Below, piece by piece: positions 1-63,719 of a stretch of 63,719 nucleotides of DNA. The notes beneath the pieces are model-generated. The model was given only the letters and a program-made list of their open reading frames with translations, was not told where the DNA came from and made no database searches. Each line of letters opens with the position of its first letter. Position 1 is the stretch's first letter. The translations under genes and the position numbers were made by a program. Source of the DNA: a virus; IMG/VR virus record IMGVR_UViG_3300027969_000100, positions 1 to 63,719 of that record; one strand, given 5' to 3'.

Positions 1-127
1 ACAACAGATACCTTATATATTGGAAATCCCTCTGTTGCTAATACTACTGATATTGAAATTTGGAATCCTAGAGATGGATATTTAAGATTTGCTACCAACA
101 ACACCGAACGAATGCGCATCACTTCGG
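1..127 (+). repeat. 127-bp exact direct repeat, copy 1 (partner 59742-59868)
   Basis: Every base from 1 to 127 matches 59742-59868; base 128 is t while 59869 is g. Both copies are in the same codon frame of a tail-fibre gene. A perfect match of exactly 127 bases that starts at the first base of the window is what a de Bruijn assembler with k=127 leaves at a contig end. It is therefore more likely an assembly overlap than a biological duplication. Confidence 0.95.
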
Positions 128-618
128 TAGGCAATACTCAGCCAGGGGCTGATAATGCCTATTCGCTAGGAGTCAGCGGTACACGATGGTCAGCAGTATG
201 GGCAGCAAATGGCACTATTCAAACATCAGATGTGAGAGAAAAAAAGGATATTATTGATTCAGATTTAGGCTTAGGGTTTATCACCAAATTAAGACCTGTT
301 TCATTCAAGTGGAAGGTGGGTCAAAATGTAGTGACTAGCCAAGTTGTAAAAGATGAGGAAGGCAATTCTATTTTAGATGAAGAAGGTATTGAAAAAACCG
401 AGTCTGTACTAATTCCAAGAAAAGGCAAAAGAACTCATTATGGTTTGATTGCTCAGGAAGTGGAGGAAGTATTGGATGGTAAAGACTTTGGCGGGTTTAT
501 TCACGATGAAGAAACAGATACAAAGGGCTTGAGATATGACCAATTCGTTCCACTTTTGATTAAATCAATACAGGAATTGAATGAGAAAATCGTTATATTA
601 GAGTCTAAACTAAAATGA
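1..618 (+). CDS. Tail fibre, C-terminal part with S74 intramolecular chaperone domain (5' end outside window)
   Basis: The frame is open from base 1, so the gene enters the window from upstream; the ATG at 112 is internal. The end is a peptidase S74 (endosialidase chaperone) domain: the Ser-Asp-x-Arg-x-Lys motif has its Ser codon at 226-228, followed by the conserved block around HYGLIAQEVEEVL and a C-terminal coiled coil. In this family the domain trimerises the fibre and then cuts itself off at that Ser using the Lys five residues on. Bases 1-127 are identical and in frame with the long fibre gene at 55890, so I infer this is the true end of that gene in a circular genome (joined product 1489 residues). 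The domain call is firm; the joining is inference. Confidence 0.9.
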   Translation, partial: TTDTLYIGNPSVANTTDIEIWNPRDGYLRFATNNTERMRITSVGNTQPGADNAYSLGVSGTRWSAVWAANGTIQTSDVREKKDIIDSDLGLGFITKLRPVSFKWKVGQNVVTSQVVKDEEGNSILDEEGIEKTESVLIPRKGKRTHYGLIAQEVEEVLDGKDFGGFIHDEETDTKGLRYDQFVPLLIKSIQELNEKIVILESKLK

Positions 619-619
619 T

Positions 620-1075
620 ATGACAAAGGATTTAGGCATCTATACGATTTATTCTGATGGCAAAGTTTATTCAAACAAGAGTAAAAAGTTTATAAAGCCA
701 CACATTGAAAATGGATATTATAGGATTGGACTATATATTGATAGCAAACCAAAAACCTATAAACTTCATAGATTGATAGGTGAATGCTTTATAGAAAAGC
801 CTGATGGCAAGAATCAAATCAATCATAAGGATTGCAACAAACTCAATAATGATGTATCTAATTTGGAATGGTGCAACAATAGCGAGAATCAATTACACGC
901 TTATAAAAATGGTTTGAATGTCAGCATTCATAAAAAATTAGTCTTGGATTTAGAGACAGGGGTTTATTATGATTCTGCTACTGAATTAGCAAACCTATTA
1001 GGCATGAATAGAGTCACACTAATCGGTAGATTGAACGGAAATCGTCACGAATTAAAAAGGTATAAATACGCATAA
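620..1075 (+). CDS. HNH homing endonuclease
   Basis: The 151-residue protein has a NUMOD4-like N-terminal segment (residues about 1-55) and an HNH_3 core with INHKDCNKLNNDVSNLEWCN around residues 67-86, where His and Asn are the expected metal and catalytic residues. The C-terminal third resembles a NUMOD-type DNA-recognition helix-turn-helix. Such free-standing endonucleases nick DNA and spread their own gene between phage genomes. It starts one base after the tail-fibre stop codon. Sequence just after its stop looks like a leftover of an older fibre C-terminus, suggesting insertion at the end of the fibre gene. Confidence 0.85.
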   Translation: MTKDLGIYTIYSDGKVYSNKSKKFIKPHIENGYYRIGLYIDSKPKTYKLHRLIGECFIEKPDGKNQINHKDCNKLNNDVSNLEWCNNSENQLHAYKNGLNVSIHKKLVLDLETGVYYDSATELANLLGMNRVTLIGRLNGNRHELKRYKYA

Positions 1076-1092
1076 CTTAAAAAACAAATCAA

Positions 1093-1161
1093 ATGAAAAT
1101 CACGCTAACAGAAGACCAAATCAAAATGCTAGAAGCATGGGCCGGGATGTCCTTCATTTAA
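1093..1161 (+). pseudogene. Truncated 22-codon copy of the small gene downstream of the tail fibre
   Basis: The reading frame begins MKITLTEDQIKMLEAWA and then jumps to GMSFI and a stop. The copy at 60401-60541 has the same start but seven extra residues (QELPTKY) at the jump, and continues to 46 residues. The difference is a clean 21-bp deletion plus a stop codon where the longer copy has Gln. I infer a decayed copy; it could still be translated as a peptide. Its function is unknown. Confidence 0.6.
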
Positions 1162-1168
1162 ATATACT

Positions 1169-1405
1169 ATGGGAAATATTAATTCATACTCAACTGACAA
1201 TGCAGTATCCTACAACGACAAGTTGATAGGTACTGATGCTGAGGACAGCAACAAGACTAAGAACTTTACTATCGGAAGTATTCTATCTATGCCTCTACCA
1301 AGTGTGCCTGTCTACGCTAACAATGCAGCGGCTATTGCAGCAGGGCTTGTTGTTGGACGTGTATACAGAATCACAGGGACAGGAAATCTAGGGATAGTGT
1401 TCTAA
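1169..1405 (+). CDS. Small tail-fibre-related protein
   Basis: This 78-residue protein carries a LIGTD...NKTKNF.IG segment (about residues 19-40), which also occurs near the N-terminus of the long tail fibre at 55890 (LLIGTD...NITKNFSIG). It ends with an alanine-rich stretch around YANNAAAIAAGLVVG that I recognise from small Bacteroidota phage structural proteins. I infer a virion attachment or fibre-adaptor role. It could also be a shortened fibre gene kept as a stand-alone module. No enzyme motif is visible. Confidence 0.6.
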   Translation: MGNINSYSTDNAVSYNDKLIGTDAEDSNKTKNFTIGSILSMPLPSVPVYANNAAAIAAGLVVGRVYRITGTGNLGIVF

Positions 1406-1431
1406 ACACCTTCCCAATTAAATTTAATCTA

Positions 1432-1659
1432 ATGGACATAAGAAAGATATCGGTAGGCCCAGATTACAAGGGCAGCTCAATGCATTACATTGTGGGGCAG
1501 AAGGTTCTAGGTGACAGCCATGAGATTCATCTCATCAAGTTTGTCATAGACACAGGATCAATTAGGATTTATATTATAAACGATAAGCAGGAGGTGGTAA
1601 TGTGGAAGGAATTCAACTATACCATGCCTATTGCAATTGAATACAATATAAACTACTAA
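1432..1659 (+). CDS. Conserved hypothetical phage protein, 75 aa
   Basis: A compact beta-rich protein beginning MDIRKISVGPDYKGS. From memory, similar short proteins precede the terminase in related Bacteroidota phages, but no function is known to me. Its stop codon overlaps the next start by one base (TAATG at 1657-1661), so the two are probably co-translated. No membrane segment or signal peptide is visible. Confidence 0.65.
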   Translation: MDIRKISVGPDYKGSSMHYIVGQKVLGDSHEIHLIKFVIDTGSIRIYIINDKQEVVMWKEFNYTMPIAIEYNINY

Positions 1660-2222
1660 TGCAGTCTCCATTTGATTTTATCGTAACACCTGTGAAGGGT
1701 GAGCGGTATAACAACACCAAGGATATTGGTGGCATTGAGTTTATTGTCAACACATCAGAGGAGGATCACAAGTTCTCCAACAGATATGGTGAGGTGATTG
1801 AGGTGCCATACGGATACGATGGTCCTATTCAGGTAGGCGATACACTACTAGTACACCACAATGCCTTCAAGTTCTACAACGATATTAGGGGTAGGCGTAA
1901 GAGCGGTCGGGCATTTTTTAGAGACGATAAGTTCTTCATTGAGCCTGATCAGTTTTTCATGTACCGTAGAAACGGCACGTGGAACACCTATGACAGGTAC
2001 TGCTTTGTGAAGCCAATCCTTGCAATTGATTCGTATATTAAGAAGCCATTCACTCACGAGCCACTAATGGGTGAGATGGTGTACCCTAATGCATACCTTG
2101 TATCTCAAGGCGTGAAAGCTGGGGACATGGTCTGCTTCAAGCCTGACAGTGAGTATGAGTTTGATGTGGATGGAGAGAAGCTGTACAGGATGTATGACCA
2201 CCAGATAACCATCAAGCTATGA
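1659..2222 (+). CDS. Double GroES-like (Cpn10-fold) protein upstream of terminase
   Basis: I read two GroES-like halves in 187 residues. The first (about 5-103) has a barrel start (FDFIVTPV), a mobile-loop-like stretch with GGIEFIV at 24-30, then YGEVIEVP and the VGDTLLVHHNAFKF strand at 59-72. The second (about 114-187) ends with AGDMVCFKPDSEYEF, VDGEKLYRM and a final ITIKL, which follows the GroES C-terminal pattern GD.V.F....EY...GE.Y.I....I. The second half lacks a clear mobile loop. GroES caps GroEL rings through the hydrophobic tripeptide of this loop. The place just before the terminase genes suggests a dedicated folding partner for a virion protein, or a structural use of the fold. 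The fold is inferred from pattern only. Confidence 0.6.
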   Translation: MQSPFDFIVTPVKGERYNNTKDIGGIEFIVNTSEEDHKFSNRYGEVIEVPYGYDGPIQVGDTLLVHHNAFKFYNDIRGRRKSGRAFFRDDKFFIEPDQFFMYRRNGTWNTYDRYCFVKPILAIDSYIKKPFTHEPLMGEMVYPNAYLVSQGVKAGDMVCFKPDSEYEFDVDGEKLYRMYDHQITIKL

Positions 2223-2503
2223 GAGAGATAAAGCTAAAGATAATTGAGGCAGGGCACCAGGCTGTAGAGCAGCTTATTATGGTGGCTAAAGAGGCGATCA
2301 TCAAGCATGACAATGAGGATGAGCTATCTGCTGACAGATTAAAGAATGCCGCAGCTACAAAGAAGTTAGCCATCTTTGATGCGTTTGAGATTCTCAATAG
2401 GATAGAGGCTGAGCGTGAAGCTCTTGAGATGTTGGATAAGGGAGTTAACAGAACAGAAACCAAACAAGGATTTGCAGAGCGAAGGTCTATATCGAATCGT
2501 TAA
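2219..2503 (+). CDS. Putative terminase small subunit or terminase-linked protein
   Basis: The 94-residue helical, charged protein starts in a 4-base overlap with the previous gene (ATGA at 2219) and overlaps the terminase large subunit frame by up to 89 bases. Position immediately before the large subunit is the main argument for a small-terminase role, which would be DNA recognition during packaging. I see no clear helix-turn-helix. Residues 37-60 (about ELSADRLKNAAATKKLAIFD) form a long amphipathic helix. The function is inferred from position. Confidence 0.5.
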   Translation: MREIKLKIIEAGHQAVEQLIMVAKEAIIKHDNEDELSADRLKNAAATKKLAIFDAFEILNRIEAEREALEMLDKGVNRTETKQGFAERRSISNR

Positions 2504-4709
2504 GGACTACGTTCCTCAGAATGCTCTTAGTAAGAAGAACAGCGGAAGGACATGGCTGTACGGTTACAATGAGCAGTACGACATGGTCGTTATATCTAGG
2601 ACCGGAGAGATAGGTGATATCATAAATATCTCAGGGCTATGTATTGCCTTGCCTAAGGCACCTAAAGAATGCTTCTCAAGGAGCAAGAGCGTTAGGGATC
2701 AGTACTGGGAGAGACAGGAGCTACCAAAGGAGCTATCAAAGATACAGTCAATCTTCCACTGGAATGAGATGCCTGCTGAGTTTAAGGACAGCTGGGTAGA
2801 CTACATTGAGGAGGAGTTCAATAGGCGTGAGGATGGCATGTGGTTCATGAATGATGGTGCACCAACGTACATGACAGGATCTCACTACATGTACTTGCAG
2901 TGGTCTAGCATTGACGTAGGGTATGCAGACTATCGTGAAGCCAACAGGATATTCTTTATTTTCTGGGAGGCATGTAAGGCAGACATGAGAGCATTTGGTA
3001 TGATCTATCTAAAGATTAGACGTTCAGGGTTCTCGTTCATGTCATCATCAGAGTGCGTTAACATAGCCACTCTTGCTCGTGACTCTCGTGTTGGTATACT
3101 ATCTAAGACAGGTGCTGATGCTAAGAAGATGTTCACTGACAAGGTGGTACCAATTAATAGCAGGCTACCATTCTTCTTCAGACCTATCATGGATGGTATG
3201 GACAAGCCAAAGACTGAACTTGCGTACCGAGTACCAGCATCTAAGATCACTAAGAAGAACATGGCCACTGTCGGAGACAATGATGTGCTTGGCCTTGATA
3301 CCACAATTGACTGGAAGAACACTGAGGAGAACTCTTACGATGGTGAGAAGCTACTATTCTTGGCACATGATGAGAGTGCTAAGTGGACTAAGCCAAACAA
3401 TATACTCAACAACTGGAGGGTAACCAAGACCTGTCTCAGGGTGGGTAGTAAGATTATAGGCAAGTGCATGATGGGATCTACATCGAATGCATTGAGCAAG
3501 GGTGGAGATAACTACAAGAAGCTATACGAGGACTCAAATGTATTAAACAGGAATGCGAATGGACAGACTAAGAGTGGACTATACTCTCTATTTATACCGA
3601 TGGAGTGGAACATGGAGGGATTCATTGATAGGTACGGTATGCCTGTACTTAGAAAGCCTGCTGCTCCTATTCTGGGTGTTGACAACCAGATGATTCGTAA
3701 CGGGGCTATAGACTACTGGGAGGCTGAGGTGGACTCATTGAAGAATGATGCCGATGCCCTCAACGAGTTCTATCGTCAGTTCCCTCGTACGGAGAGCCAT
3801 GCATTCAGGGACGAGAGTAAGTCATCCATATTTAATTTGACCAAGATCTATCAGCAGATAGACTACAACGACTCCATGATTGAGGGGCAGATGGTTACAC
3901 GTGGTGGGTTTCATTGGAAGGATGGTGAGAAGGACACTAAGGTTATATGGACACCTGACCAGCGTGGCAGGTTCTTAATTAGCTGGGTTCCTCCTACTAA
4001 TATGCAGAACAATGTGATAACCAGGAATGGAATGAAGTACCCTGGGAATGAACACCTTGGTTCGTTTGGCTGTGACCCATACGATATCTCTGCCGTAGTA
4101 GGTGGGAGAGGATCTAATGGTGCATTGCATGGTATGACTAAGTACCACATGGACGATGCTCCTGCCAACCAGTTCTTCTTAGAGTACATTGCTAGACCAC
4201 AGACTGCTGAGATATTCTTTGAGGATGTGCTGATGGCATGTATCTTTTATGGTATGCCAGTGCTTGCTGAGAACAACAAGGCACGTATACTGTACCACTT
4301 TAAGAACAGGGGCTACAGAGCGTTCTCATTGAACAGGCCCGATAGGGTGCTAAATAAGCTCAGTAAGACAGAGCGAGAGCTTGGGGGTATACCTAACTCA
4401 AGTGAAGAAGTTAAGCAGGCCCACGCCTCTGCAATTGAGTCGTACATAGAGAAGTTCGTTGGGTTCGATATGACATCTACTTATAGACCTGCTGATGAGA
4501 TAGGCACCATGCCATTCATTAGAACACTTGAGGACTGGGCTAAGTTTGATATTAATGATAGAACAAAGCATGATGCATCAATCAGTTCGGGGTTAGCTAT
4601 AATGGCAAATCAAAAACATGTATATTTACCAGATAAAAAAGAACCGAAAATTAGTGTTAATTTCGCGAAGTACGCTAACACTGGAAATCAAAGTCAAATT
4701 ATTAGATGA
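2415..4709 (+). CDS. terL: Terminase large subunit
   Basis: A packaging motor of up to 764 residues. A degenerate Walker A (KIRRSGFSF) lies near residue 200, a Walker B-like LLFLAHDES near 312, and the RuvC-like nuclease starts with FGCDPYD near 552. Length and order fit a large terminase that pumps and cuts DNA at the portal. The annotated ATG lies inside the preceding gene, so the start is uncertain; a TTG near 2472 is an alternative. The last 30 codons are noticeably more A/T-rich than the rest and match the style of the endonuclease gene that follows, perhaps a co-conversion tract. Confidence 0.9.
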   Translation: MKLLRCWIRELTEQKPNKDLQSEGLYRIVKDYVPQNALSKKNSGRTWLYGYNEQYDMVVISRTGEIGDIINISGLCIALPKAPKECFSRSKSVRDQYWERQELPKELSKIQSIFHWNEMPAEFKDSWVDYIEEEFNRREDGMWFMNDGAPTYMTGSHYMYLQWSSIDVGYADYREANRIFFIFWEACKADMRAFGMIYLKIRRSGFSFMSSSECVNIATLARDSRVGILSKTGADAKKMFTDKVVPINSRLPFFFRPIMDGMDKPKTELAYRVPASKITKKNMATVGDNDVLGLDTTIDWKNTEENSYDGEKLLFLAHDESAKWTKPNNILNNWRVTKTCLRVGSKIIGKCMMGSTSNALSKGGDNYKKLYEDSNVLNRNANGQTKSGLYSLFIPMEWNMEGFIDRYGMPVLRKPAAPILGVDNQMIRNGAIDYWEAEVDSLKNDADALNEFYRQFPRTESHAFRDESKSSIFNLTKIYQQIDYNDSMIEGQMVTRGGFHWKDGEKDTKVIWTPDQRGRFLISWVPPTNMQNNVITRNGMKYPGNEHLGSFGCDPYDISAVVGGRGSNGALHGMTKYHMDDAPANQFFLEYIARPQTAEIFFEDVLMACIFYGMPVLAENNKARILYHFKNRGYRAFSLNRPDRVLNKLSKTERELGGIPNSSEEVKQAHASAIESYIEKFVGFDMTSTYRPADEIGTMPFIRTLEDWAKFDINDRTKHDASISSGLAIMANQKHVYLPDKKEPKISVNFAKYANTGNQSQIIR

Positions 4710-5372
4710 ATGGCCTGTATCTACAGACACATACGAAAAGATTTAAACGTACCATTTTACGTTGGGATAGGTAAAAACTTGAATCGAGCTTACTCAAAGT
4801 CTCACAGGAATAATCATTGGTTGTCTATAGTTCAGAAGACAGAATACGATGTTCACATTGTTTTTGATGAGATTGATTACGAATTTGCAAAAGAGAAAGA
4901 AAAAGAGTTTATTGATTTGTACAAAAGAAAAGTTGATGGTGGAACTCTTTGCAATATCACTAAGGGTGGAGATGGAGTCCTTGGAATAGTACATAGTGAG
5001 GAAGCCAGAAAAAAAATGGGTGAGCCAAATAAAGGCAAGACTATTTCAGAGTGGCATAGAAAAAGAATATCTGAGTTTCATACAGGAAAAGTAGTTGCTA
5101 AACAGACAAAAGAAAAGATGTCTGAAAAAATGTCTGGAGAAAACAACCACAGATATGGGGTAAATGCTTCTGAAGAAACAAAAAATAAAATGAGTGCTTC
5201 TGCAAGAAAAGGAGAGGATAATCATTCTTCTAAATTAATTGCATCAGACATATTAGAAATAAAAAAAATGAGTTCAGAAGGAATGAGCCAAAGAAAAATA
5301 GCTTTAAAATTTAATGTTACTAAGACTGCTATTTCTCGTATCATAAAAGGAATTACTTGGAAACACGTATAG
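4710..5372 (+). CDS. GIY-YIG homing endonuclease with NUMOD3 repeats and HTH
   Basis: The N-terminus (IYRHIRKDLNVPFYVGIGK, residues 4-22) is a variant GIY-YIG nuclease core. Residues about 95-180 contain NUMOD3-like motifs (SEEARKKMGEPNKGK, TKEKMSEKMSGENN), and the C-terminus (SQRKIALKFNVTKTAISRI) is a helix-turn-helix. This layout is typical of group I-type homing endonucleases that insert into conserved phage genes. It sits directly between terminase and portal with no gap, and its codons are A/T-richer than those of both neighbours, a sign of acquisition. It probably has no role in virion building. Confidence 0.87.
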   Translation: MACIYRHIRKDLNVPFYVGIGKNLNRAYSKSHRNNHWLSIVQKTEYDVHIVFDEIDYEFAKEKEKEFIDLYKRKVDGGTLCNITKGGDGVLGIVHSEEARKKMGEPNKGKTISEWHRKRISEFHTGKVVAKQTKEKMSEKMSGENNHRYGVNASEETKNKMSASARKGEDNHSSKLIASDILEIKKMSSEGMSQRKIALKFNVTKTAISRIIKGITWKHV

Positions 5373-5373
5373 A

Positions 5374-7809
5374 ATGAAAGATGTCGTAGTTAATATATCC
5401 TCAACTGCATTTCCTAGTCAGTTTGTATCTGATGCTGAGAAAGCATCTCCAGAGTATGGACTACAAGTGGGCCAGAGCATACAGTACGAATGGTTCCGCA
5501 AAGATGGCAGCAATTGCAGATACTATAATCAGTGGGCTGAGTTTCATCGCTTGCGTTTGTACGCACGTGGTGAGCAGTCCATTCAGAAATATAAGAATGA
5601 GTTAGCCGTAGATGGTGACTTGTCTTACTTAAATCTAGACTGGACTCCTGTACCTATCCTACCTAAGTTTGTGGATATTGTCGTTAACGGCATGAATGAC
5701 AGACTGTTTAAGGTTAAGGCATACGCACAGGATGCGATGTCTCAGGCAAAGCGTAGTAAGTATCAGGACATGATTGAGAGCCAGATGCTTGCTAAGGATC
5801 TTCTTTCTAAGATACAGCAGGAGACTGGCGTTGACCCATTTGTAACTAACCCAGAGGAGCTGCCTCAGACTGATGAGGAGCTATCACTATACATGCAGCT
5901 TAAGTATAAGCCTGCGATTGAGATAGCTGAAGAGGAGGCTATCAATACAATTTTTGATGAGAACCACTACCAGGATACACGCAAGCGTATTGACTATGAC
6001 CTTGCAGTAATTGGTATAGGTATTGCTAGGCATCAGTTCCTGCTAGGTTCTGGTGTCGATGTGTCCTATGTTGACCCAGCGAATGTTGTGTACAGCTACA
6101 CTGAGGACCCATTCTTTCAAGACTGCTTCTATTGGGGAGAGATAAAGACTCTTCCTATTACAGAGCTTTTAAAGATTGACCCAACTCTTAAAAATGAGCA
6201 GCTAGAAGAAATATCTAAGTACTCTCAGAGCTGGTATGACTACTACAATGTGGCTAGGTTCTATGAGAACAGTATGTTCAGTAGAGACACCTGCACACTA
6301 CTTTACTTCAACTACAAGACCACTAAGAAGATGGTCTACAAGAAGAAGATTCTTGAGGGGGGTGGTACTCGTGTTATAGAGAAGGATGACAAGTTTAATC
6401 CTCCTGTAGAGATGATGGAGGAAGGGAAGTTTGAGAAGTTGGAGAAGACAATTGACGTTTGGTATGATGGTGTAATGGTGATGGGCACTAACTTCTTATT
6501 GAAGTGGGAGATGTCAGAGAACATGGTTAGACCAAAGTCTTCATCTCAGCATGCTATACCAAACTATGTAGCGGTAGCACCACGGATGTACAAGGGTGCC
6601 ATTGAGTCGTTGGTGAGAAGGATGATACCTTTCGCTGACTTGATTCAGTTGACTCACCTGAAGCTACAGCAGGTCATTGCACGTACTGTACCTGATGGGG
6701 TGTTCATTGATGCAGATGGATTGAATGAGGTTGACTTGGGAACAGGAGCGGCTTACAACCCGGAGGATGCGCTAAGACTATACTTCCAGACAGGTAGTGT
6801 TATTGGTCGAAGCTATACTCAGGATGGTGAGTTCAACAATGCACGAGTTCCTATTACACAGCTTACGTCTAACTCAGGTGCTGCTAAGACTCAGATGTTG
6901 ATTGCTAACTACAATCACTATCTAGACATGATTCGTTCTGTTACTGGTCTTAATGAGGCTAGGGATGGATCTAATCCTGACCCTAATGCATTGGTTGGTG
7001 TACAGAAGCTTGCAGCTCTTAACTCAAACACAGCGACTAGACACATCCTTGAGAGTGGTCTATTTATCTATAGGTCTCTTGCTGAGGCACTTACATATCG
7101 TGTTGCTGATATTCTTCAGTACGCTGACTTTAAGGATGACTTCGCTAATAAGATTGGTAAGTACAATGTGTCCATCTTAAATGACATTAAGGATCTGTAC
7201 ATCTATGACTTTGGTATCTTCATTGAGATTTCTCCAGACGAGGAGCAGAGAGCACAGCTAGAGGCCAACGTACAGATGGCATTGTCCAAGGGTGATATTA
7301 ATCTTGAGGATGCTATTGACATCAGAGAACTTAAGAACCTTAAGCTTGCCAACCAGCTACTTAAGATGAAGAGAGTTAAGAAGCAGGAGAGAGAAGAGAA
7401 GATGATGATGCAGAAGCAGGACATGATGGCTCAGCAGCAGATGCAGTCTCAAGAGTTCGCTGCTCAGGCAGCTATGCAACAGCTCCAGTTGGATACCCAA
7501 TCTAAGATGCAGATTAAGCAGGCAGAGGTGGCGTTCGATATTGAGAAGCTAAAGGCAGAGGCAGAGCTTAAGAGAATGTTGATGGCTGAAGAGTTTAATT
7601 ATCAGATGCAGATTGCTGGTGTCAAGGAGACCGCACTTGCTGATAGAGATACAATGAAGGAGGAATCTAAAGCTAAGCGAATCAGTCAGCAGAATTCTGA
7701 GCAGTCTAAGTTGATTAATCAGAGGAAGAATAACTTACCTCCATTAAGCTTTGAGTCTAACGAGGACACACTTGATGGGTTTGATATGGCACAGTTTGAG
7801 CCACGTTAA
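5374..7809 (+). CDS. Portal protein
   Basis: This 811-residue protein lies between terminase and the scaffold-like gene, the usual portal position. Its centre resembles the portal proteins of crAss-like and related podoviruses. The last 170 residues are a long glutamine- and methionine-rich coiled coil (KKQEREEKMMMQKQDMMAQQ region) that would form the barrel or crown. As a ring of twelve it forms the DNA channel of the head. The assignment rests on position, length and remembered similarity; no search was possible. Confidence 0.85.
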   Translation: MKDVVVNISSTAFPSQFVSDAEKASPEYGLQVGQSIQYEWFRKDGSNCRYYNQWAEFHRLRLYARGEQSIQKYKNELAVDGDLSYLNLDWTPVPILPKFVDIVVNGMNDRLFKVKAYAQDAMSQAKRSKYQDMIESQMLAKDLLSKIQQETGVDPFVTNPEELPQTDEELSLYMQLKYKPAIEIAEEEAINTIFDENHYQDTRKRIDYDLAVIGIGIARHQFLLGSGVDVSYVDPANVVYSYTEDPFFQDCFYWGEIKTLPITELLKIDPTLKNEQLEEISKYSQSWYDYYNVARFYENSMFSRDTCTLLYFNYKTTKKMVYKKKILEGGGTRVIEKDDKFNPPVEMMEEGKFEKLEKTIDVWYDGVMVMGTNFLLKWEMSENMVRPKSSSQHAIPNYVAVAPRMYKGAIESLVRRMIPFADLIQLTHLKLQQVIARTVPDGVFIDADGLNEVDLGTGAAYNPEDALRLYFQTGSVIGRSYTQDGEFNNARVPITQLTSNSGAAKTQMLIANYNHYLDMIRSVTGLNEARDGSNPDPNALVGVQKLAALNSNTATRHILESGLFIYRSLAEALTYRVADILQYADFKDDFANKIGKYNVSILNDIKDLYIYDFGIFIEISPDEEQRAQLEANVQMALSKGDINLEDAIDIRELKNLKLANQLLKMKRVKKQEREEKMMMQKQDMMAQQQMQSQEFAAQAAMQQLQLDTQSKMQIKQAEVAFDIEKLKAEAELKRMLMAEEFNYQMQIAGVKETALADRDTMKEESKAKRISQQNSEQSKLINQRKNNLPPLSFESNEDTLDGFDMAQFEPR

Positions 7810-7818
7810 AAAAAAATA

Positions 7819-7826
7819 TATATTTG
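7819..7826 (+). promoter_or_regulatory. Bacteroidota -7 promoter box TATATTTG
   Basis: The box matches the TAnnTTTG consensus of the Bacteroidota housekeeping sigma factor and lies 19 bases before the ATG at 7846 in a 36-base intergenic gap. It would start a short transcript for the scaffold-capsid genes. A clear TTTG at -33 is not visible. Confidence 0.65.
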
Positions 7827-7845
7827 TAACATAAAATCTAATTAA

Positions 7846-8937
7846 ATGGAAATCAAAGTAAGATCACTAGATGGGATTGAGCCAAAGAGTGTACAAGAAG
7901 TAGAGAAAGAGCTCCTTGAAAAACATGAAAGGGAGATTAGCGGTGAAGTACAGTTGGATACTTCTAGTATTGACAATGCAGTTCAAGACAGTGCTCCTCA
8001 AGAGGAGGAGTTATCTGAAGAAAAAGTTCTTTCATATATTGGAAAAAGATACAATAAGCAAATCAATTCATTTGATGAGTTGATGGATCAGAGACAGAGC
8101 AATGAAGAATTGCCTGAGGATGTTGCAGCTTATTTGAATTATAAGAAGGATACTGGTAGAGGCTTTGATGATTTCCTAAAGCTTAGGAAGGACTACGATG
8201 CTATGGACCAGAATCAACTTCTTAAAGAGTACCTTGCAGATACACAGCAGAATCTAGACGATGAGGACATTGAAGTCTTGATGGAGGATTACACCTACGA
8301 TGAGGACCTAGATGATGAGTCAAAGATTAAGCATGTAAAGATTGCAAGAAAGAAAGCTATTGCCGAAGCGAAAAAATACTTCAATTCTCAGAAAGATAAA
8401 TATAAGCTTCCGCTTGAGTCAAGTGGTATGGGCTTATCTCCAGAAGAGAAAGAAGAATTCGAGGCTTATCGTCAGTATACAAAACAGTCAAAGACTGTAG
8501 AGGAGGAAGGTAATCGGAAGCGTAAGTGGTTCGACCAAAAGACAGATGAAGTTTTTAGTAAAGACTTCAAAGGATTTGAGTTCGACATTAACGATAAAAA
8601 GATTTTATTTACTCCGGCATCTGGTTCAGAATTAAAGAGTGCTCAGTCAAGTCCATTAAACTTTGTTAATAAGTTCTTGGATGACAGTGGACTAATTAAG
8701 GATGCAGCTGGATACCACAGGTCTTTGTCTATCGCAATGAATCCTGAGAAGTTTGCCAAGTTCTTTTATGAGCAAGGGCAAGCGGATGCTACCGATGATG
8801 TTTTACGTAAGACCAAAAATATAAATATGTCTGAGCGTAGAGCTCCTGAGGTTGTTAATAAGGGTGGAATGCAGGTGAAGGCGATTGCGCCAGACTCTGG
8901 AAGGGGTCTAAAAATCCGCAGTATTAAAAAAATCTAA
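7846..8937 (+). CDS. Putative head scaffolding or capsid assembly protein
   Basis: A 363-residue, very acidic and helical protein placed between portal and major capsid protein, where scaffolds usually lie. Residues 35-60 are Glu/Asp-rich and about 95-200 look coiled-coil. The C-terminal tail is basic (about GRGLKIRSIKKI), as expected for a scaffold end that binds the inner capsid surface. A protease domain is not visible. The role is inferred from position and composition. Confidence 0.65.
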   Translation: MEIKVRSLDGIEPKSVQEVEKELLEKHEREISGEVQLDTSSIDNAVQDSAPQEEELSEEKVLSYIGKRYNKQINSFDELMDQRQSNEELPEDVAAYLNYKKDTGRGFDDFLKLRKDYDAMDQNQLLKEYLADTQQNLDDEDIEVLMEDYTYDEDLDDESKIKHVKIARKKAIAEAKKYFNSQKDKYKLPLESSGMGLSPEEKEEFEAYRQYTKQSKTVEEEGNRKRKWFDQKTDEVFSKDFKGFEFDINDKKILFTPASGSELKSAQSSPLNFVNKFLDDSGLIKDAAGYHRSLSIAMNPEKFAKFFYEQGQADATDDVLRKTKNINMSERRAPEVVNKGGMQVKAIAPDSGRGLKIRSIKKI

Positions 8938-48956: not shown

Positions 48957-48957
48957 G

Positions 48958-54655: not shown

Positions 54656-55404
54656 AGAACTTAAGCAAGGAGGAACTACTAAGTCGAATGGAGGCAATTA
54701 ATCGTAGCAATGCGATTATTTACTTTGACTTAAATGGTTTTATCCTTGGAGTAAACGCTATCTTCTTAGAGGCTATGGGCTTTGCTGAAGATGAGCATGA
54801 TAAGCTGATTGGAAAGCACCATTCGATTTTTGTCAGCTACGAATATTCTAAGTCTGAAGACTATACAAAATTCTGGGAAATGCTTCGGGCTGGAAAATTT
54901 TACGAAGGTGAATTTGAAAGAAGAAAGATAGATGGTAGACCTATTTATTTGCAGGCTACATACAATCCTATCTTTGACGAAAGCGGTACTATCACTAAGA
55001 TAATGAAGATAGCTACCGACATTAGCCAAACTATTGTAAGTAAAAATAAGATTGGCGAACTATCTAAAAGTTTGCAGGCTGAGTTAGAAAACTCAAATAA
55101 GTTAAGGGCAGCAATTGAGATTGAAAAGGATGCAGCTGTTAATGACTTAGATGCTACCATTAAGAAAAGTCAAAACGAGCTCATTAAAGTAATTGTAAAG
55201 TCTGCCTTGTTCGTAATTATGAGTGTTGGATTTATTACAACGATAATGTACTCGTTTGCTATTCTATCGGATAAGGATACGCAAATCATTGGATCTACTT
55301 GGTCAAATATGTTTTCGGTTTTATTGACGAATGCCTTCTCTATTGTCGGCACAATCATGGGAATTAAGTACGCAACTTCAGAAGATAAAAAAAATAAGGA
55401 ATGA
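54652..55404 (+). CDS. PAS-domain membrane protein in the lysis cassette
   Basis: Residues about 10-130 form a PAS domain of the chemoreceptor type: AIIYFDLNGFILGVNAIFLE, GKHHSIFVSYEYSKSEDYTK, FWEMLRAGKFYEGEFERR and NPIFDESGTITKIMKIATDI. Residues 135-175 are a coiled coil. Two membrane helices follow (178-204 and 219-240), with a short charged tail. No kinase, methyl-accepting or other output domain exists. It lies between the holin candidate and the peptidase with four-base overlaps on both sides, so it may tune lysis. Which signal or cofactor it binds is unknown. Confidence 0.8.
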   Translation: MKNLSKEELLSRMEAINRSNAIIYFDLNGFILGVNAIFLEAMGFAEDEHDKLIGKHHSIFVSYEYSKSEDYTKFWEMLRAGKFYEGEFERRKIDGRPIYLQATYNPIFDESGTITKIMKIATDISQTIVSKNKIGELSKSLQAELENSNKLRAAIEIEKDAAVNDLDATIKKSQNELIKVIVKSALFVIMSVGFITTIMYSFAILSDKDTQIIGSTWSNMFSVLLTNAFSIVGTIMGIKYATSEDKKNKE

Positions 55405-55862
55405 AAATTAGCACTCACCTAAGTATTGCCGAGATTACTAGAAGTGATTCTGCAAAACGTCACGGAATTGACAACACTCCTACTGCCGAGCATTTGGAGA
55501 ACTTTAAGTTACTAGCTGAGAAAGTATTCGAGCCCATTCGTGAACACTTCGGAGTTCCTATTTTTATTAGCTCTGGGTACAGAAGCAAGGCTCTCAATGA
55601 TTTCATTAAGGGGAGTTTATCCAGTCAGCATTGCAAGGGCGAAGCGATTGATATCGATATGGATGGGGGGAATGGAGAGGTAACTAATAGAATGGTATTT
55701 GATTTCATAAAAAATAAGTTAGACTTTGATCAGTTGATTTGGGAGTTTGGAACTGACTTTAACCCGGATTGGGTACACGTATCATACACTAAAGGCAAGA
55801 ACAGAAAGCAAAAGTTAAAAGCTGTGCGTACGAATGGTAAGACTTCTTACCTTAATCTTTAG
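55401..55862 (+). CDS. Peptidase M15 endolysin (VanY/D-Ala-D-Ala carboxypeptidase-like)
   Basis: The 153-residue protein has the zinc motif SSQHCKGEAIDID (H77, D84) and WVHVSY with H126, plus SSGYRSKALN. This is the M15_3 layout used by endolysins that cut peptide cross-links in peptidoglycan. It has no signal peptide, so it would need the holin. A GGTAAG/CTTACC hairpin lies at the end of the gene. Confidence 0.87.
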   Translation: MKISTHLSIAEITRSDSAKRHGIDNTPTAEHLENFKLLAEKVFEPIREHFGVPIFISSGYRSKALNDFIKGSLSSQHCKGEAIDIDMDGGNGEVTNRMVFDFIKNKLDFDQLIWEFGTDFNPDWVHVSYTKGKNRKQKLKAVRTNGKTSYLNL

Positions 55863-55889: not shown

Positions 55890-58800
55890 ATGGCAAAGAT
55901 AAGTACATACCCCATTCTTTCTACCCCTACCCTCAATGACCTGCTCATAGGTACAGATGTAGAAAACCTAAATATCACCAAAAACTTTTCTATTGGAGAT
56001 ATCGCCAGCTTTATTGTTGGCGGTAGTTATGTTCCATACGTTGGTGCAACTGGCAACGTAAACTTAGGGGCTTTTAATATCACCTCCTCTTCATTTATTG
56101 TTGGTGGAGGATTAGCCACTCAGTTTTTAAAGGCTAATGGTACGCTTGACTCAACAGTCTATCAGCCTGCTGGCAACTATATCACTCAGCTTTCAGGAGA
56201 GGCAACTGCTTCAGGGCCAGGTAATGCAACTGTTACACTTAGCAATTCCGCTGTAATAAATAAAGTATTAACAGGTCTTACTATTACAGGTAATGCAATT
56301 GTTGCAACTGACAGCATACTTACTGCATTTGGTAAAGTACAAAATCAAATCAATACGCTTGTTGGCGGTGTTCAGTACAAAGGTACGTGGAACGCAGCGA
56401 CTAATGTACCAGCTTTAGTAAGCTCTGTAGGTATTTCAGGTAACTATTATGTAGTAAGTGTAGCAGGCAATACAAATCTTAATGGGATTACCGATTGGAA
56501 TCTTGGTGATTGGGCCATCTTTAACGGTTCAGCTTGGGAGAAGGTTGATAATACTGATGCGGTCATAAGTGTCAATGGTCAGGTTGGGGCTGTTGTGCTT
56601 ACAACAACTAATATTAGTGAGGGCACTAATCTGTACTTTACTAATTCACGTGCTAGGACTGCAATAAATTTAACAACCACTGGTAACAGTGGAGCAGCTA
56701 CGTATAACAACACAAATGGGTTCTTTAATATCCCTGAGTATACTTTATCAGGTCTTGGCGGAGTTCCTTTAACAAGACAGCTAACTATTAATGGTACAGC
56801 ATTTGACTTATCAGCAAATAGAAGTTGGAGTGTGGGTACAGTTACGTCAATTGCCACAACTGGACCGCTTACAGGGGGTACAATTACTGGTTCTGGCACA
56901 ATTGGAATTACGCAGGCAGGAGCAAGCTCAGATGGATACTTGTCTAGTACTGACTGGAATACATTCAACAATAAGCAGAACGCATTAACTAATCCTATAA
57001 CAGGGACTGGTACGATTTTTACTTTGCCCATGTGGGGTGGTGCTACATCTTTGATCGATAGCCCACTATCCTATGGCTCAAATAACTTTAATTTTCAATA
57101 TAATAGCGCAACCGGTGGTACGGTAACTTTTACGAATAGTGGATTGACTGCTTACGCATACACTATACAGATGAACAACTTCGGTTCTCCGAGGTCAACT
57201 GTTCATAGCTATACTGATGGGGTTGTCATTCAATCTATAGCCGGCACTCAGGTATCTAGACTATTTGCTAATGGAAACTTGATTCTAGGAACAGGGACTG
57301 CTGACAATGGACACAAGCTTGAGATAATTGGGAGCCTGTATGTAAATACAATTACCAATGCAACCGTTGATACTGACAGATTTATTGTAAGTGATGGAGG
57401 GGTTATTAAGTATAGGACAGGCACTGAATTACGCTCAGATATTGGCGCAGGCATAGGTTCTGTTACAAGTGTAGGACTTAGTATGCCTTCAGCATTTAGT
57501 GTCGCTAACAGTCCTATAACAGGCGCAGGAACTATTGCTGTAACAGGCGCAGGTAGTGCCTCTCAGTATGTTAGAGGAGATGGCACATTGGCTGACTTTC
57601 CTACAAATACAGGAGGAGGCTCATCAGTTAGTTACTACCTAAACGGATCTGTTAGTCAGGGGACTATTGGTGGTGTTGCTTACAGAGAGCTAAGCAAGAT
57701 TCCTATTTTTGGAGCAGGCACAGATATAAGTATTGCTGCTGATGGGTACATTGCTTCTTTTATTACTGATGCTGGTGACCCTGCGTTGCTTAATATCCCA
57801 GCTGGAAACTGGAACTTTGAAACTTATTTTAGTGCTTCAAGTGGTGGAGGCACCCCTTCATTTTATGTGGAGCTGTACAGATATGATGGAGCTATATTTA
57901 CTCTTATTGCATCAAGCGTTGGTACTCCTGAGTTAATTTCTTTTGGAACAAATATACAGCCATACTTTTCTACTCTTGCTGTTCCTCAAACTGCTTTAGC
58001 ATTAACAGATAGACTTGCTATTCGATACTATGTTATTCATGATGGCCGTACAATTACTCTTCATACAGAAGATAATCACTTGTGTCAAGTTGTTACTACG
58101 TTCTCTAATGGATTAACGGCATTGAATGGATTGACCGCACAGGTTCAATACTTTCAGGTAGGTACTTCAGGAACGGACTTTGCTATCTCAAGTGCAACTA
58201 ATATTCATACCTTCAATATCCCTACTGCTTCAGCTACAAATCGAGGGGCTTTGAGTAGTGCTGATTGGACAACTTTTAACAATAAACAGAATGCTTTAAC
58301 AAACCCAATCACGGGCACAGGTGTATCAGGACAAGTAGCTTATTGGAATGGGACTAATTCGCAAACGGGAAGCAATAACCTATTTTGGGATAATACAAAT
58401 ATAAAACTTGGAATAGGTACAAACACACCTGAAGGAACAGGTTTGACAGTTGCAGGTGGAGGGGTTTTAATTAGCCTTGATTCGGGTGCTGCTAGAAAAG
58501 TATTAGAACTTTATGCTACAAGTACGGGGGCAAAAGTATCTTCTACTTATGTCGGTGCTTCATCTTATGGTAGTTTAGAATTATTAACTTCAAATGTGCC
58601 AAGGCTTACAATAGCGGACACGGGCGGTGTAACTTTGACAGGTGCTTTGAACGGGACTAGTGCTAGTTTTAGTGGATTGCTAACTGCAATCCCAACAGCA
58701 ACAACTTTGGTAAGAGCAGCTACTTTTGGCAATACTTCAACAAATGCTTTATCTGCTGCATCTATTGGTTTTAATTTAGGTGGTGGTGATTTTGGTGCAA

Positions 58801-60404
58801 TAGAGGTAGGTTACAATAGCAATAGTCCATATATGGATTTAAAAGTAGGTGCTTCATTGACTCAATCATTAAGACTAGCCTCCACAGGCGCAGCTACCTT
58901 TTCAAGCAGCGTGAACCTAGGAACAAATGCAAATGGAGCGGATACGGCTTTACTAAATATCAAGCAGGCAGGGACATCCTACAATAATGGTATCTACATA
59001 GAAAGAGGCGGTGAGAGAAACGGCTACCATATGTATATCGGTGGTGCATTGGATTCGCTTACTTTTAGAAGGAACTACTTTGGCACTCAATCTGATGTAA
59101 TGTCCTTAACTAGAGACGGCAACGTAGGCATCGGCACGGCTAGTCCAGATGTGACAGGTTTTGGGTGGAGAACATTAACTATAAAAGGAGGCAATAATTC
59201 AGGTGATGCAGGTGTTTTAGAATTACAAAGCCCCACAACAACAGGTGCAGCTAATCTTGGTATAATTGCATTTTTAGATGGTTCAAATAGAAATGCTCAA
59301 ATAGCAGGACAAAGAGATGGAGCTACTAATAGTGGTGCATTAAGTTTTACAACTTGGAATGCAGGAACAGGCAGCGAACGAATGCGCATCACTTCCGCAG
59401 GAAACATAGGCATCGGCACGACTAGTCCTCAAGCAAAACTTGAAGTAAAACAAACTGCTAGTGAAATACCTTTTATAATTGATTCAAGTAGTGATTCAAA
59501 TGCAGCCTATACACTATACCAAGTTAATGGAAGCGGAGGTTGGGAAACGGGAATGTCTAATGCAGCGGATGGTTATAAATACCTTTTTTCCTATGGTGCT
59601 TTTGGAACTGCAAACTCAAAGGTAGCAATCACAAACACAGGCAACGTAGGCATCGGCACGGCTAGTCCTTCGGGTTCTTATTCTTTAACATTAGCAGGGA
59701 ATGCTAGTTCAACTACAGGAGGAATAAATTTAAGACAAAATACAACAGATACCTTATATATTGGAAATCCCTCTGTTGCTAATACTACTGATATTGAAAT
59801 TTGGAATCCTAGAGATGGATATTTAAGATTTGCTACCAACAACACCGAACGAATGCGCATCACTTCGGGGGGGGATGTTGTTACATTTGGAGCATTTAGG
59901 GCTTACAATACTTTTTTTGGTATTAGTAATTCAACAGGTTCAACACCTTATGGATTTTTTGGTAGAAGAGGATCAGCTACAGGTAGTGGTAATGACATGA
60001 CAATATTTGCCGAATCAGGTCTTGGAATTTATACTTATACAAATGGTGGTGTTTCACCAGCAGGACCTTTTGTAGCATCAGGAGGAACTTCTTGGACAAA
60101 TGGTTCATCAGATATTAGAAAGAAAAAGAATTTTGAAACAACTCAGGGATTGGCTGAAATTTTACAAATTGAACCTATCAAATATCATTTTAATGAAGAT
60201 GAAGATGATTCTAAAAAAAGGTTAGGATTTAAAGCACAAAATTTATTAGATATAATCCCTGAGATGGTATCTGAAACAGGTGAATTAGCTGAAGATGGAA
60301 CTAGCTATTTAACTATAACCCCTGATTATATTTTGCCTATATTAGTCAAAGCAATACAAGAACTTAAAACAGAAATAGATTCACTTAAAAACCAAATCAA
60401 ATGA
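55890..60404 (+). CDS. Long tail fibre with C-terminal S74 chaperone domain
   Basis: The annotated product has 1504 residues. The N-terminus (LLIGTDVENLNITKNFSIGD) is the adaptor-like segment shared with the gene at 1169. Two copies of SSxDWxTFNNKQNALTNPI lie near residues 350 and 788, and three GNxGIGTxSP repeats near 1078, 1170 and 1252. The S74 domain starts near 1407 with SSDIRKKK (Ser and Lys as in the self-cleaving family) and ends in a coiled coil. Residues after about 1326 (59869 on) probably belong to another phage, because of the 127-bp overlap; the alternative C-terminus is at 1-618. Confidence 0.85.
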   Translation: MAKISTYPILSTPTLNDLLIGTDVENLNITKNFSIGDIASFIVGGSYVPYVGATGNVNLGAFNITSSSFIVGGGLATQFLKANGTLDSTVYQPAGNYITQLSGEATASGPGNATVTLSNSAVINKVLTGLTITGNAIVATDSILTAFGKVQNQINTLVGGVQYKGTWNAATNVPALVSSVGISGNYYVVSVAGNTNLNGITDWNLGDWAIFNGSAWEKVDNTDAVISVNGQVGAVVLTTTNISEGTNLYFTNSRARTAINLTTTGNSGAATYNNTNGFFNIPEYTLSGLGGVPLTRQLTINGTAFDLSANRSWSVGTVTSIATTGPLTGGTITGSGTIGITQAGASSDGYLSSTDWNTFNNKQNALTNPITGTGTIFTLPMWGGATSLIDSPLSYGSNNFNFQYNSATGGTVTFTNSGLTAYAYTIQMNNFGSPRSTVHSYTDGVVIQSIAGTQVSRLFANGNLILGTGTADNGHKLEIIGSLYVNTITNATVDTDRFIVSDGGVIKYRTGTELRSDIGAGIGSVTSVGLSMPSAFSVANSPITGAGTIAVTGAGSASQYVRGDGTLADFPTNTGGGSSVSYYLNGSVSQGTIGGVAYRELSKIPIFGAGTDISIAADGYIASFITDAGDPALLNIPAGNWNFETYFSASSGGGTPSFYVELYRYDGAIFTLIASSVGTPELISFGTNIQPYFSTLAVPQTALALTDRLAIRYYVIHDGRTITLHTEDNHLCQVVTTFSNGLTALNGLTAQVQYFQVGTSGTDFAISSATNIHTFNIPTASATNRGALSSADWTTFNNKQNALTNPITGTGVSGQVAYWNGTNSQTGSNNLFWDNTNIKLGIGTNTPEGTGLTVAGGGVLISLDSGAARKVLELYATSTGAKVSSTYVGASSYGSLELLTSNVPRLTIADTGGVTLTGALNGTSASFSGLLTAIPTATTLVRAATFGNTSTNALSAASIGFNLGGGDFGAIEVGYNSNSPYMDLKVGASLTQSLRLASTGAATFSSSVNLGTNANGADTALLNIKQAGTSYNNGIYIERGGERNGYHMYIGGALDSLTFRRNYFGTQSDVMSLTRDGNVGIGTASPDVTGFGWRTLTIKGGNNSGDAGVLELQSPTTTGAANLGIIAFLDGSNRNAQIAGQRDGATNSGALSFTTWNAGTGSERMRITSAGNIGIGTTSPQAKLEVKQTASEIPFIIDSSSDSNAAYTLYQVNGSGGWETGMSNAADGYKYLFSYGAFGTANSKVAITNTGNVGIGTASPSGSYSLTLAGNASSTTGGINLRQNTTDTLYIGNPSVANTTDIEIWNPRDGYLRFATNNTERMRITSGGDVVTFGAFRAYNTFFGISNSTGSTPYGFFGRRGSATGSGNDMTIFAESGLGIYTYTNGGVSPAGPFVASGGTSWTNGSSDIRKKKNFETTQGLAEILQIEPIKYHFNEDEDDSKKRLGFKAQNLLDIIPEMVSETGELAEDGTSYLTITPDYILPILVKAIQELKTEIDSLKNQIK
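59118..59668 (+). repeat. 29-bp exact direct repeats inside the tail-fibre gene
   Basis: GGCAACGTAGGCATCGGCAC plus nine more bases is identical at 59118-59146 and 59640-59668, with a diverged third copy near 59400. They encode the GNVGIGTASP repeat and offer sites for recombination between fibre genes. Confidence 0.8.
59742..59868 (+). repeat. 127-bp exact direct repeat, copy 2 (partner 1-127)
   Basis: See copy 1. The match begins exactly at window base 1 and ends at the first differing base, 59869. Confidence 0.95.
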
Positions 60405-60541
60405 AAATTACCCTAACAGAAGACCAAATCAAAATGCTTGAAGCATGGGCACAAGAACTGCCTACCAAGTACGGGATGTCCTTTATCCAATTCCTAGCCC
60501 AACAGGTTCAGGAGCAGAACCCGAAGGAAGAAACAGAATAA
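60401..60541 (+). CDS. Small protein downstream of the tail fibre, 46 aa (intact copy)
   Basis: ATG 60401 overlaps the fibre stop as ATGA. The product starts MKITLTEDQIKMLEAWAQEL and ends acidic. It is the complete version of the broken copy at 1093-1161. The tight coupling suggests a fibre-associated peptide. Confidence 0.65.
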   Translation: MKITLTEDQIKMLEAWAQELPTKYGMSFIQFLAQQVQEQNPKEETE

Positions 60542-60845: not shown

Positions 60846-62651
60846 ATGGGTTTATTCGGTGCTGAATCTGAAGATGTCCAGAAAGCCCTTTTGAAGGTAC
60901 AGTCTGCGATGGCTTTATCGCAGGGTTTATCACAGCTTGCGGATCTAGGAAAGGTCACAGATCAGCTAAAATCATCCTTTAAGGGATTGATAGGAACTAC
61001 TGCGCAGAAGACAGCAGCTACTACAGCAGATACGGCAGCAACAGGAGCAAATGCAGTAGCCAATACAGCACAGGCAGCAGCTACAAATGCATCTTCCCTA
61101 GCAAGTAAGGCAGCAGCAATATCTATGAAAGTTCTTAGAGGGGCTTTGATTTCTCTGGGTATTCCTGCTTTGGTACTTGGATTAATTTCTTTGGTGCAAA
61201 ACTTTGGTGCTATCAAAGATGCGGTCTTAAATTTATTGCCCGGTCTAAAAGGATTTTCGGATACGATCGGTAATTTAGTACAAGGGGTTACGGATTTCTT
61301 CGGAGTCACTAGCAAAGCAAACAGGGAACTTGAGGCACTAGGGAAGACCAATCAAAAGATAAACGAAGAAACAGGAAATCGGATCAAAATATTATCTGCA
61401 CAAGGCGGTAAGGAAAGCGAGATCTATCAGCTTAGAGTTAAGCAGATAGAAAGCGAATTGAATCTACTTGAACAAACTAATAAAGCAAAAGGTAAACTTT
61501 CTGAGGAAGAACTAAAAAGACAAAAGGAACTTCAGACGGAAAGAACAGTAGAAGCATATACCTATTTAAAAAATAGACAAGATCAGGAAAAAGCAGCAGC
61601 GGAAAAGCAGGCAGCAGAGGCGAAGTCCAGAGCAGAAAAGGCAAAGGCTGAACAGGATAGAATTAATGAAGAAAAACTAGCAGCAGAAAAGAAACTTGCT
61701 GAGGAACAAAAAGAACTGCAAGAAAAAACGGCAGCGGAAGATAAGGAATTCCAAAAGCGAATAAATGAGATTCTGCTTGAATCAAGGCTTGCAGCGATCA
61801 AAGATGAAAACGATAGAGTTCGGGCAGAATTAATTGCACAACAGGAACAGGAACTTGCAGATCTAGCAGAAGATACCAAGCTTAGGGCAGATCAAAAACT
61901 AGCCATTCAAAAGCAGCTTGAGATTCGAAACAAAGAAGAACTAGATGCGCTTGAATTGACATTTGCGGAAGCAGATGCCATCAAAAAACTTGATGAACTA
62001 GATGCCCAAATGAAAGAGGCAGATGATAATTTGAATTTAGAAAGAAGTCTGCTAGATGAAAAGGATGCCCTACTTAAAGAATACTATGATAAAAATTTAA
62101 TTTCAGATATTGAATACACGCAAGGAATAAAAGAAAATTCAGATGCAAGAATAGCCATAGATAAGGCAGAATACGATTTAAAAATATCTCAGGCACAGGC
62201 TGCATCTCAATTACTTGGATCACTTTCTGAATTGGCAGGAAAAAGAACGGCAGCAGGAAAGGCACTAGGAATAGCTGAAGCAATTATCAATACTTCTGTG
62301 GGTGTTACTCAGGCATTAAAGCAGGAATCTGTTTTGCCTTCCCCTTTTGATGTAGTAGCGAAGGTAGCAAATATTGCTACTATTTTGGCATCAGGCTTAA
62401 AAGCGGTTAAAGCAATTACGGCAGTCAATGTTCCCGGTGGCGGAGGCGGTGGAGGAGGCGCAGCTTTCCCATCTATTTCAGCATCAGCACCAAGCGGAGG
62501 TAGTCAAGTCCCTACAATTGGATCTAGCCCGGTTACTGCCTTGGGAACTATGATGCAGAATCAGACTCCAATCAAAGCGTATGTGGTAGAAAGTGAAGTG
62601 ACAGGAACGCAAAAGCGAGTAGCGGATATTGAACGAAGGGCAGGATTTTAA
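60846..62651 (+). CDS. Tail tape-measure-like protein (start uncertain, coding extends upstream)
   Basis: From the first ATG the protein has 601 residues, but the same frame stays open from 60498 and reads convincingly as protein (DADVKPLKKQLKEATLELQA) from about 60600. No ATG, GTG or TTG exists in that stretch, so the true start is hidden. The protein has an alanine-rich region, a hydrophobic segment (ALISLGIPALVLGLISLV), a long Lys/Glu/Ala coiled coil and a Gly-rich tail ending PIKAYVVESEVTGTQKRVAD. This is typical of tape-measure proteins of long-tailed Bacteroidota phages and prophages. It does not fit the short-tailed module earlier in the window. Confidence 0.7.
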   Translation: MGLFGAESEDVQKALLKVQSAMALSQGLSQLADLGKVTDQLKSSFKGLIGTTAQKTAATTADTAATGANAVANTAQAAATNASSLASKAAAISMKVLRGALISLGIPALVLGLISLVQNFGAIKDAVLNLLPGLKGFSDTIGNLVQGVTDFFGVTSKANRELEALGKTNQKINEETGNRIKILSAQGGKESEIYQLRVKQIESELNLLEQTNKAKGKLSEEELKRQKELQTERTVEAYTYLKNRQDQEKAAAEKQAAEAKSRAEKAKAEQDRINEEKLAAEKKLAEEQKELQEKTAAEDKEFQKRINEILLESRLAAIKDENDRVRAELIAQQEQELADLAEDTKLRADQKLAIQKQLEIRNKEELDALELTFAEADAIKKLDELDAQMKEADDNLNLERSLLDEKDALLKEYYDKNLISDIEYTQGIKENSDARIAIDKAEYDLKISQAQAASQLLGSLSELAGKRTAAGKALGIAEAIINTSVGVTQALKQESVLPSPFDVVAKVANIATILASGLKAVKAITAVNVPGGGGGGGGAAFPSISASAPSGGSQVPTIGSSPVTALGTMMQNQTPIKAYVVESEVTGTQKRVADIERRAGF

Positions 62652-62662: not shown

Positions 62663-63719
62663 ATGGATAAATTACCACTATATAAAATGTTTATCGCTGA
62701 CGATATCGATGGCGAAGAAGAAGTAGATTTTGTAGCCTTGGTAGAAAGCCCGGCAATACAGAGAAACTTTTTAGCCTTTGGAGATCAATTTGTAGAACCA
62801 ACACAGGGCGAAAGCAAAAATGACTTTATGCCTAGATGCATCGAGTATGTAATTAATGAGGGTAAGGAATCAGAACAGGCGGTAGCTATCTGCTCAAGTT
62901 TATGGGAGCAGCACTTTGCAGGTACAAAAATATCATTTGATTATGATGATACTCTAAGCACTCAAAGAGGTAAAGAATTAGCTATCCAAAAAATTGATGC
63001 AGGTGAAATTGTATACATAATTTCTGCAAGATCTCAGAAAGAGAATTTGATTCCTGTAGCCAATGAACTAGGAATACCTTTGGATCGTGTTTATGCTGTA
63101 GGTAGTAATTCCGCTAAAATTGATAAGATCAAAGAACTAGGAATATCCAAGCATTACGATAATAATGCAGAAGTGATTTCTAAACTTGGAAGCATAGGTG
63201 AAAAATTTCTTGAAGTAAAGATCTTATGCAAAGAATGTGGCCATTCATGGGACTATCAAGAAGGCGGTGAAGATCCGTATACCTGTCACATGTGCGGGGG
63301 TAAAGAGAAATTTGAAAGCTATAATGACTACCCACAAAGCGCAAAGGATAATGCAGAAAAAGGCATCCGTTTAAATGAGGCGATTGGTAATCGATGCGCT
63401 ACTCAGGTGGGCAAGGTTCGAGCGCAGCAGATCATGAATGGTGAGAACCTATCAATGAATACGATAAAAAGAACCTATTCCTATTTGAGCAGGGCTGCTG
63501 AATATTACAATCCAGATGACACAGAAGCCTGCGGGACTATCAGCTATCTTCTATGGGGTGGTGAGCCTATGCTTAGATGGGCAGAAAGCAAAATGAATCA
63601 AGAAGAATTTAGTGCGCATCTATCCTTCGCAGTTCAGGATGAAGATCAAAGAATTGTATCCGGGCCGTTAATGATCGCAGATCTACCGATCTACAGAAGG
63701 GACGAAGATGGGGAATACT
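62663..63719 (+). CDS. HAD-like / zinc ribbon / XkdF-type prohead protease fusion (3' end outside window)
   Basis: The frame is open from ATG 62663 to the window end (352 codons). Residues 1-40 resemble the start of XkdF-like head proteins (FVALVESPAIQRNFLAF). At 91-98 FDYDDTLS is HAD motif I, with YIISAR and later KHYDNNAEVI as further HAD-like parts. C189, C192, C208 and C211 make a zinc ribbon. The part from about 220 (YNDYPQSAKDNA, NRCATQVGKVRAQQI, ACGTISYLLWGG) is a domain I remember from prophage head-maturation proteins. The XkdF-type protease segment follows (SFAVQDEDQRIVSGPLMIAD). It supports a long-tailed phage origin for the right end. Confidence 0.7.
   Translation, partial: MDKLPLYKMFIADDIDGEEEVDFVALVESPAIQRNFLAFGDQFVEPTQGESKNDFMPRCIEYVINEGKESEQAVAICSSLWEQHFAGTKISFDYDDTLSTQRGKELAIQKIDAGEIVYIISARSQKENLIPVANELGIPLDRVYAVGSNSAKIDKIKELGISKHYDNNAEVISKLGSIGEKFLEVKILCKECGHSWDYQEGGEDPYTCHMCGGKEKFESYNDYPQSAKDNAEKGIRLNEAIGNRCATQVGKVRAQQIMNGENLSMNTIKRTYSYLSRAAEYYNPDDTEACGTISYLLWGGEPMLRWAESKMNQEEFSAHLSFAVQDEDQRIVSGPLMIADLPIYRRDEDGEY

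Follow-up and report, generated by a model that had tools for sequence, protein, structure and literature searches.

The DNA analyzed here (the window; 63,719 nucleotides, the whole of the IMG/VR record) contains tail fibre sequence close to both of its ends, a block of podovirus head and packaging genes behind the first of these, and genes with siphophage affinity behind the second (Table 1). A scan of the window for direct repeats recovered an exact 127 bp repeat that is maximal, given that its first copy opens the record and that the two copies are followed by T and G, respectively. Apart from it, direct repeats of 25 bp or longer in the window are limited to lengths of 29 bp and 26 bp, with none reaching 30 bp, and the chance that an exact 127-mer recurs within 64 kb is negligible. 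Both copies are in the same reading frame of a tail fibre ORF, and joining position 59868 to position 128 yields a stop-free fibre ORF of 1489 amino acids that ends in an S74 domain, along with a circle of 59,741 bp. These features had been described in a sequence-only reading of this DNA, namely the identity of the two stretches within one fibre frame and the joined fibre of 1489 residues with its own S74 domain, and they were reproduced here by the repeat scan, the ORF frames, the computed open frame and the Pfam S74 match. The second copy is not located at the other end of the contig, being followed by 3851 bp that appear to derive from another phage, and IMG/VR gives no end repeats for the record.

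Table 1. Features of the window relevant to the repeat and to the predicted junction; all coordinates are those of the window.
Feature	Coordinates	Strand	Evidence
Shared 127-mer, first copy, inside the fibre gene	1..127	+	Exact match to 59742-59868; 127-bp terminal overlaps in relatives
Predicted authentic podovirus fibre C-terminus, S74 domain	128..618	+	Pfam S74; joined to TerL in L260 (100% identity from 382 on)
HNH endonuclease gene behind the fibre	620..1075	+	PHROG 59, Pfam HNH_3; likewise placed after comparable fibre ends in L249 and L250
Broken copy of the siphophage 46-aa ORF	1093..1161	+	68 bp, 94% to 60383-60450; stop after 22 codons
75-aa ORF, GroES-like gene, TerL and portal (podovirus block, located after the fibre in relatives)	1432..7809	+	Profiles; synteny in relatives
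M15 peptidase, adjacent to the fibre on its upstream side	55401..55862	+	Pfam M15_3; same order in relatives
Podovirus fibre gene up to the predicted join	55890..59868	+	55890-57440 podovirus-type, 58213 onward siphophage-like
Shared 127-mer, second copy; predicted real end of the podovirus circle	59742..59868	+	Exact repeat; overlaps in relatives
Predicted foreign fibre C-terminus, another S74 domain (siphophage branch)	59869..60404	+	Pfam S74; loci of relatives
Intact 46-aa ORF, siphophage-type	60401..60541	+	89-100% identity to copies that follow the fibre in tape-measure siphophages
Siphophage tape-measure gene (predicted foreign)	60846..62651	+	PHROG 1538, E 5.5e-8; related genes on contigs of ~32 kb or less
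Siphophage head-region gene, cut by the contig end (predicted foreign)	62663..63718	+	tblastn matches; gene order in relatives

The stretch 128-59868 encodes TerL, a P22-like portal and structural proteins that are homologous to, and collinear with, those of podoviruses similar to MW202828.1, and it already holds a full podovirus gene set. The TerL (2415-4709) shares 75% amino acid identity with that of MW202828.1, the complete circular genome of Podoviridae sp. isolate ctfjg026 from Manatee Spring (60,850 bp), and 45% with those of the Flavobacterium elemo phages. The podovirus, which is uncultured, is related to MW202828.1 and the elemo phages and is a new phage within a known group; from the names and annotation of these relatives, 128-59868 probably represents a phage of the short-tailed type. 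The order fibre, 75-aa ORF, GroES-like gene, TerL, portal is continuous in MW202828.1 and in four other relatives from IMG/VR (G010, G011, G012 and G017), and a gene for an M15 peptidase precedes the fibre in these genomes, with the exception of G011 which yielded no M15 match. Furthermore, another record (L260) is 100% identical to positions 382-10615 of the window and ties the fibre end to TerL. Because the order from fibre to portal is unbroken in the relatives, the circle of 59,741 bp that had been proposed from the sequence alone appears to be right.

Two additional features of the podovirus were observed. The 187-aa GroES-like protein and the phage's own GroEL are encoded far apart (1659-2222 and 47036-48637), and both are kept across relatives. 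A 220-aa ORF located between TerL and portal (4710-5372) is present only in some relatives and, judged by eye, resembles a GIY-YIG-type homing endonuclease.

The length of the repeat recurs at contig ends. Among the records of 14 relatives, each compared in full, terminal overlaps of exactly 127 bp were detected in four, including two podovirus records (G012, 64,818 bp, and G017, 63,609 bp) and two siphophage records (G007, 32,056 bp, and G009, 31,561 bp, with circle sizes of 31,929 bp and 31,434 bp, respectively); apart from this overlap, direct repeats of at least 40 bp are absent from all four. In the siphophage record G005, the first 126 bases recur 147 bases before the record end and are followed by differences of a few bases, a small-scale version of the inset repeat in the window. 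The authors of CheckV describe terminal repeats of length k as left by assemblers when a circle is opened (PMC8116208). Together, the overlaps in relatives of both phage types and this description support the earlier suggestion that 127 is a k-mer length, predicted to be the largest one used by the assembler.

The right end of the window (59869-63719) has different affinities. Its fibre end (59869-60404) also closes in an S74 domain, giving a fibre of 1504 amino acids. The tape-measure gene that had been noticed there from the sequence encodes a 601-aa protein, and its PHROG match bears out that assignment; the closest relatives of this protein (79-86% amino acid identity) are found on records of at most 32 kb. 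The tape-measure and head-region genes show 83-90% amino acid identity to siphophages, in which the fibre, the 46-aa ORF, the tape measure and the head-region gene follow one another in the order seen at the right end of the window. In most of the close siphophage loci, the 46-aa ORF and the tape measure are separated by 323-327 bp, vs approximately 308 bp in the window, as calculated from coordinates. The last gene had been taken for an XkdF-type gene, an assignment that was not sustained: at a loose threshold, no Pfam model scored above the cut-off for 62663-63718, and the weak tblastn matches included a prohead protease, a gene for head morphogenesis and genes annotated as major capsid protein. 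This head-region protein also contains an extra segment of about 130 amino acids (62908-63319), absent from most relatives, in which a HAD-like motif and a zinc-ribbon-like CxxC stretch are found. In tetranucleotide composition, 60405-63719 falls at the margin of the podovirus range and near siphophage regions; this likeness, which the type of protein encoded may cause, is weakly consistent with a siphophage origin. A megablast search of 55001-63719 against the phage collection returned no match, and a search for the siphophage host, in which the tape measure was compared with bacterial genomes, produced 75 pattern matches and 0 relatives.

The markers of the two phage types do not occur together. 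Among the 282 loci with any marker match, some of which are overlapping pieces of one contig and so might be counted twice, 86 contained podovirus markers and 154 contained the tape measure or the adjoining gene of 60846-63719, with no locus containing both. The most coherent interpretation, in which we have very high confidence on the strength of sequence comparison, is that the record is an assembly chimera of a complete podovirus circle (128-59868; 59,741 bp) and a part of a siphophage of approximately 32 kb (59869-63719), the latter presumably from the same sample. Because none of the loci combines the two marker sets and the right end is collinear with the ~32-kb siphophages, the genes after position 59868, as had been suspected, should not be assigned to the podovirus.

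Such a chimera could have arisen if the podovirus and the siphophage have in common a fibre stretch at least as long as the largest k-mer of the assembler, that is, at least 127 bp. The vertex of this k-mer in the assembly graph would have two exits, namely the podovirus continuation, which is the contig start, and the siphophage. The path would have taken the podovirus exit first, circled once and returned to the vertex, to leave via the siphophage exit given that the podovirus exit was already used, so that the k-mer would open the contig and recur 59.7 kb later, at 59742. We infer this choice of path within the assembler.

The right end had previously been described as an alternative branch, a description that holds in so far as this DNA appears foreign; it does not seem to be the podovirus's own allele and instead points to a different phage that has a related fibre module. 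An allele, that is, a strain of the same podovirus that differs in its fibre tip and has additional genes, might be suggested by the S74 domain with which the fibre closes at either exit and by the small ORF that comes next in each case, the two copies of which match over 68 bp at 94%. However, the small ORF at the right end is followed by the siphophage-like tape-measure and head-region genes, and in none of the 86 podovirus loci does such a right end lead into podovirus genes, which makes this reading highly improbable. Equally hard to credit is a true linear genome or genome fragment with a real internal repeat, in other words a podovirus-siphophage hybrid. The record as it stands has this form, and IMG/VR lists no end repeats for it; against this, the length of the repeat equals k, the full podovirus gene set lies within 128-59868, and hybrids are absent among the relatives. 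Both of these readings were dismissed on synteny, as was a genuine terminal repeat belonging to a packaged linear genome.

Less remote is a variant of the same chimera in which the circle is real and the crossing lies earlier in the fibre (approximately 57441-59741), so that the fibre middle shown in the record would belong to the siphophage. Over its initial 1.5 kb, the fibre is strongly matched by 12 podovirus loci and by none of the siphophage loci, and from about 58213 onward the best matches are siphophage fibres, reaching about 90% in places (58213-58913, 90% identity to L239; 58300-58624, 90% to L021; 59118-59395, 91% to L213), a level at which podovirus loci have no match there. Nevertheless, the podovirus end itself (128-618) is more similar to siphophage fibres (79-83% nucleotide identity) than to podovirus fibres (72-73%), and a broken siphophage ORF lies behind the HNH gene, so that a siphophage-like fibre would be natural in this phage; we therefore consider the earlier crossing unlikely, albeit worth keeping in mind. 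For these same reasons, the podovirus appears to have really taken up siphophage-type fibre sequence. The simplest reading is that the switch occurs at the 127-mer; because 58213-59741 is also siphophage-like, it need not sit exactly at 59868 and may lie earlier in the fibre. A search for another contig that includes the fibre sequence immediately before the 127-mer, which was aimed at fixing the switch point, produced distant or partial matches only.

The 46-aa ORF (beginning MKITLTEDQ) is located directly behind the fibre in most loci of tape-measure siphophages (L009-L027) and is intact in one podovirus (L137). One might speculate that it is a putative fibre-linked chaperone or adaptor.

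The fibre is not the only region common to the two phage types. A block at 48641-51126, with ORFs of 77, 86 and 178 amino acids and a calcineurin-like phosphoesterase, as well as the M15 peptidase gene, is common to the ~32-kb siphophages (54-88% amino acid identity) and is found only in some podoviruses (G010, G011); the M15 gene itself is closer to siphophages (88%) than to podoviruses (52-83%). Such similarities point to repeated exchange between the two types. The sharing of fibre modules, the M15 gene and this block by unrelated phages is ordinary mosaicism. Tentatively, and with somewhat less than even confidence, the 127-mer could be a recent natural recombination tract between an unrelated podovirus and siphophage with similar hosts, which would exchange fibre tips and a lysis block, with the HNH endonuclease perhaps helping to move the tip; if so, the misassembly would mark ongoing exchange within one sample.

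The finding is an assembly artefact plus modular fibre exchange, with no new biological system, and the misassembly fell at the fibre because unrelated phages have fibre modules in common. Left uncorrected, the record is listed as linear, falsely suggests a podovirus-siphophage hybrid and endows a podovirus with two fibre tips and a gene for a tape measure. The corrected record is a complete 59.7-kb genome, the use of which is in curation. There is a more general blind spot, in that tests confined to contig ends overlook a k-mer overlap located within a contig.

In comparison with known phages, MW202828.1 and the window have the same gene order from the M15 peptidase to the portal; in MW202828.1, the fibre is shorter, GroES is also present as a separate gene adjoining GroEL, and the right-end genes are wholly absent. 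Elemovirus (Flavobacterium phages vB_FspP_elemo, ~60 kb) resembles the window in size, in the presence of GroEL and GroES-like genes and in the podovirus structural block, although it is distant and has some genes on other strands. The uncultured ~32-kb siphophages from IMG/VR (G005, G006, G007 and G009) have a fibre with an S74 end, the 46-aa ORF, the tape measure and the head-region gene, as does the right end, and have none of the structural genes of the podovirus at 2415-30800. The repeat in the window is similar to the terminal repeats described for CheckV (PMC8116208) in that it is exactly k long and is found at the contig start and at the point of closure; unlike those, its second copy lies 3.85 kb inside the contig end, so that end-based tests miss it.
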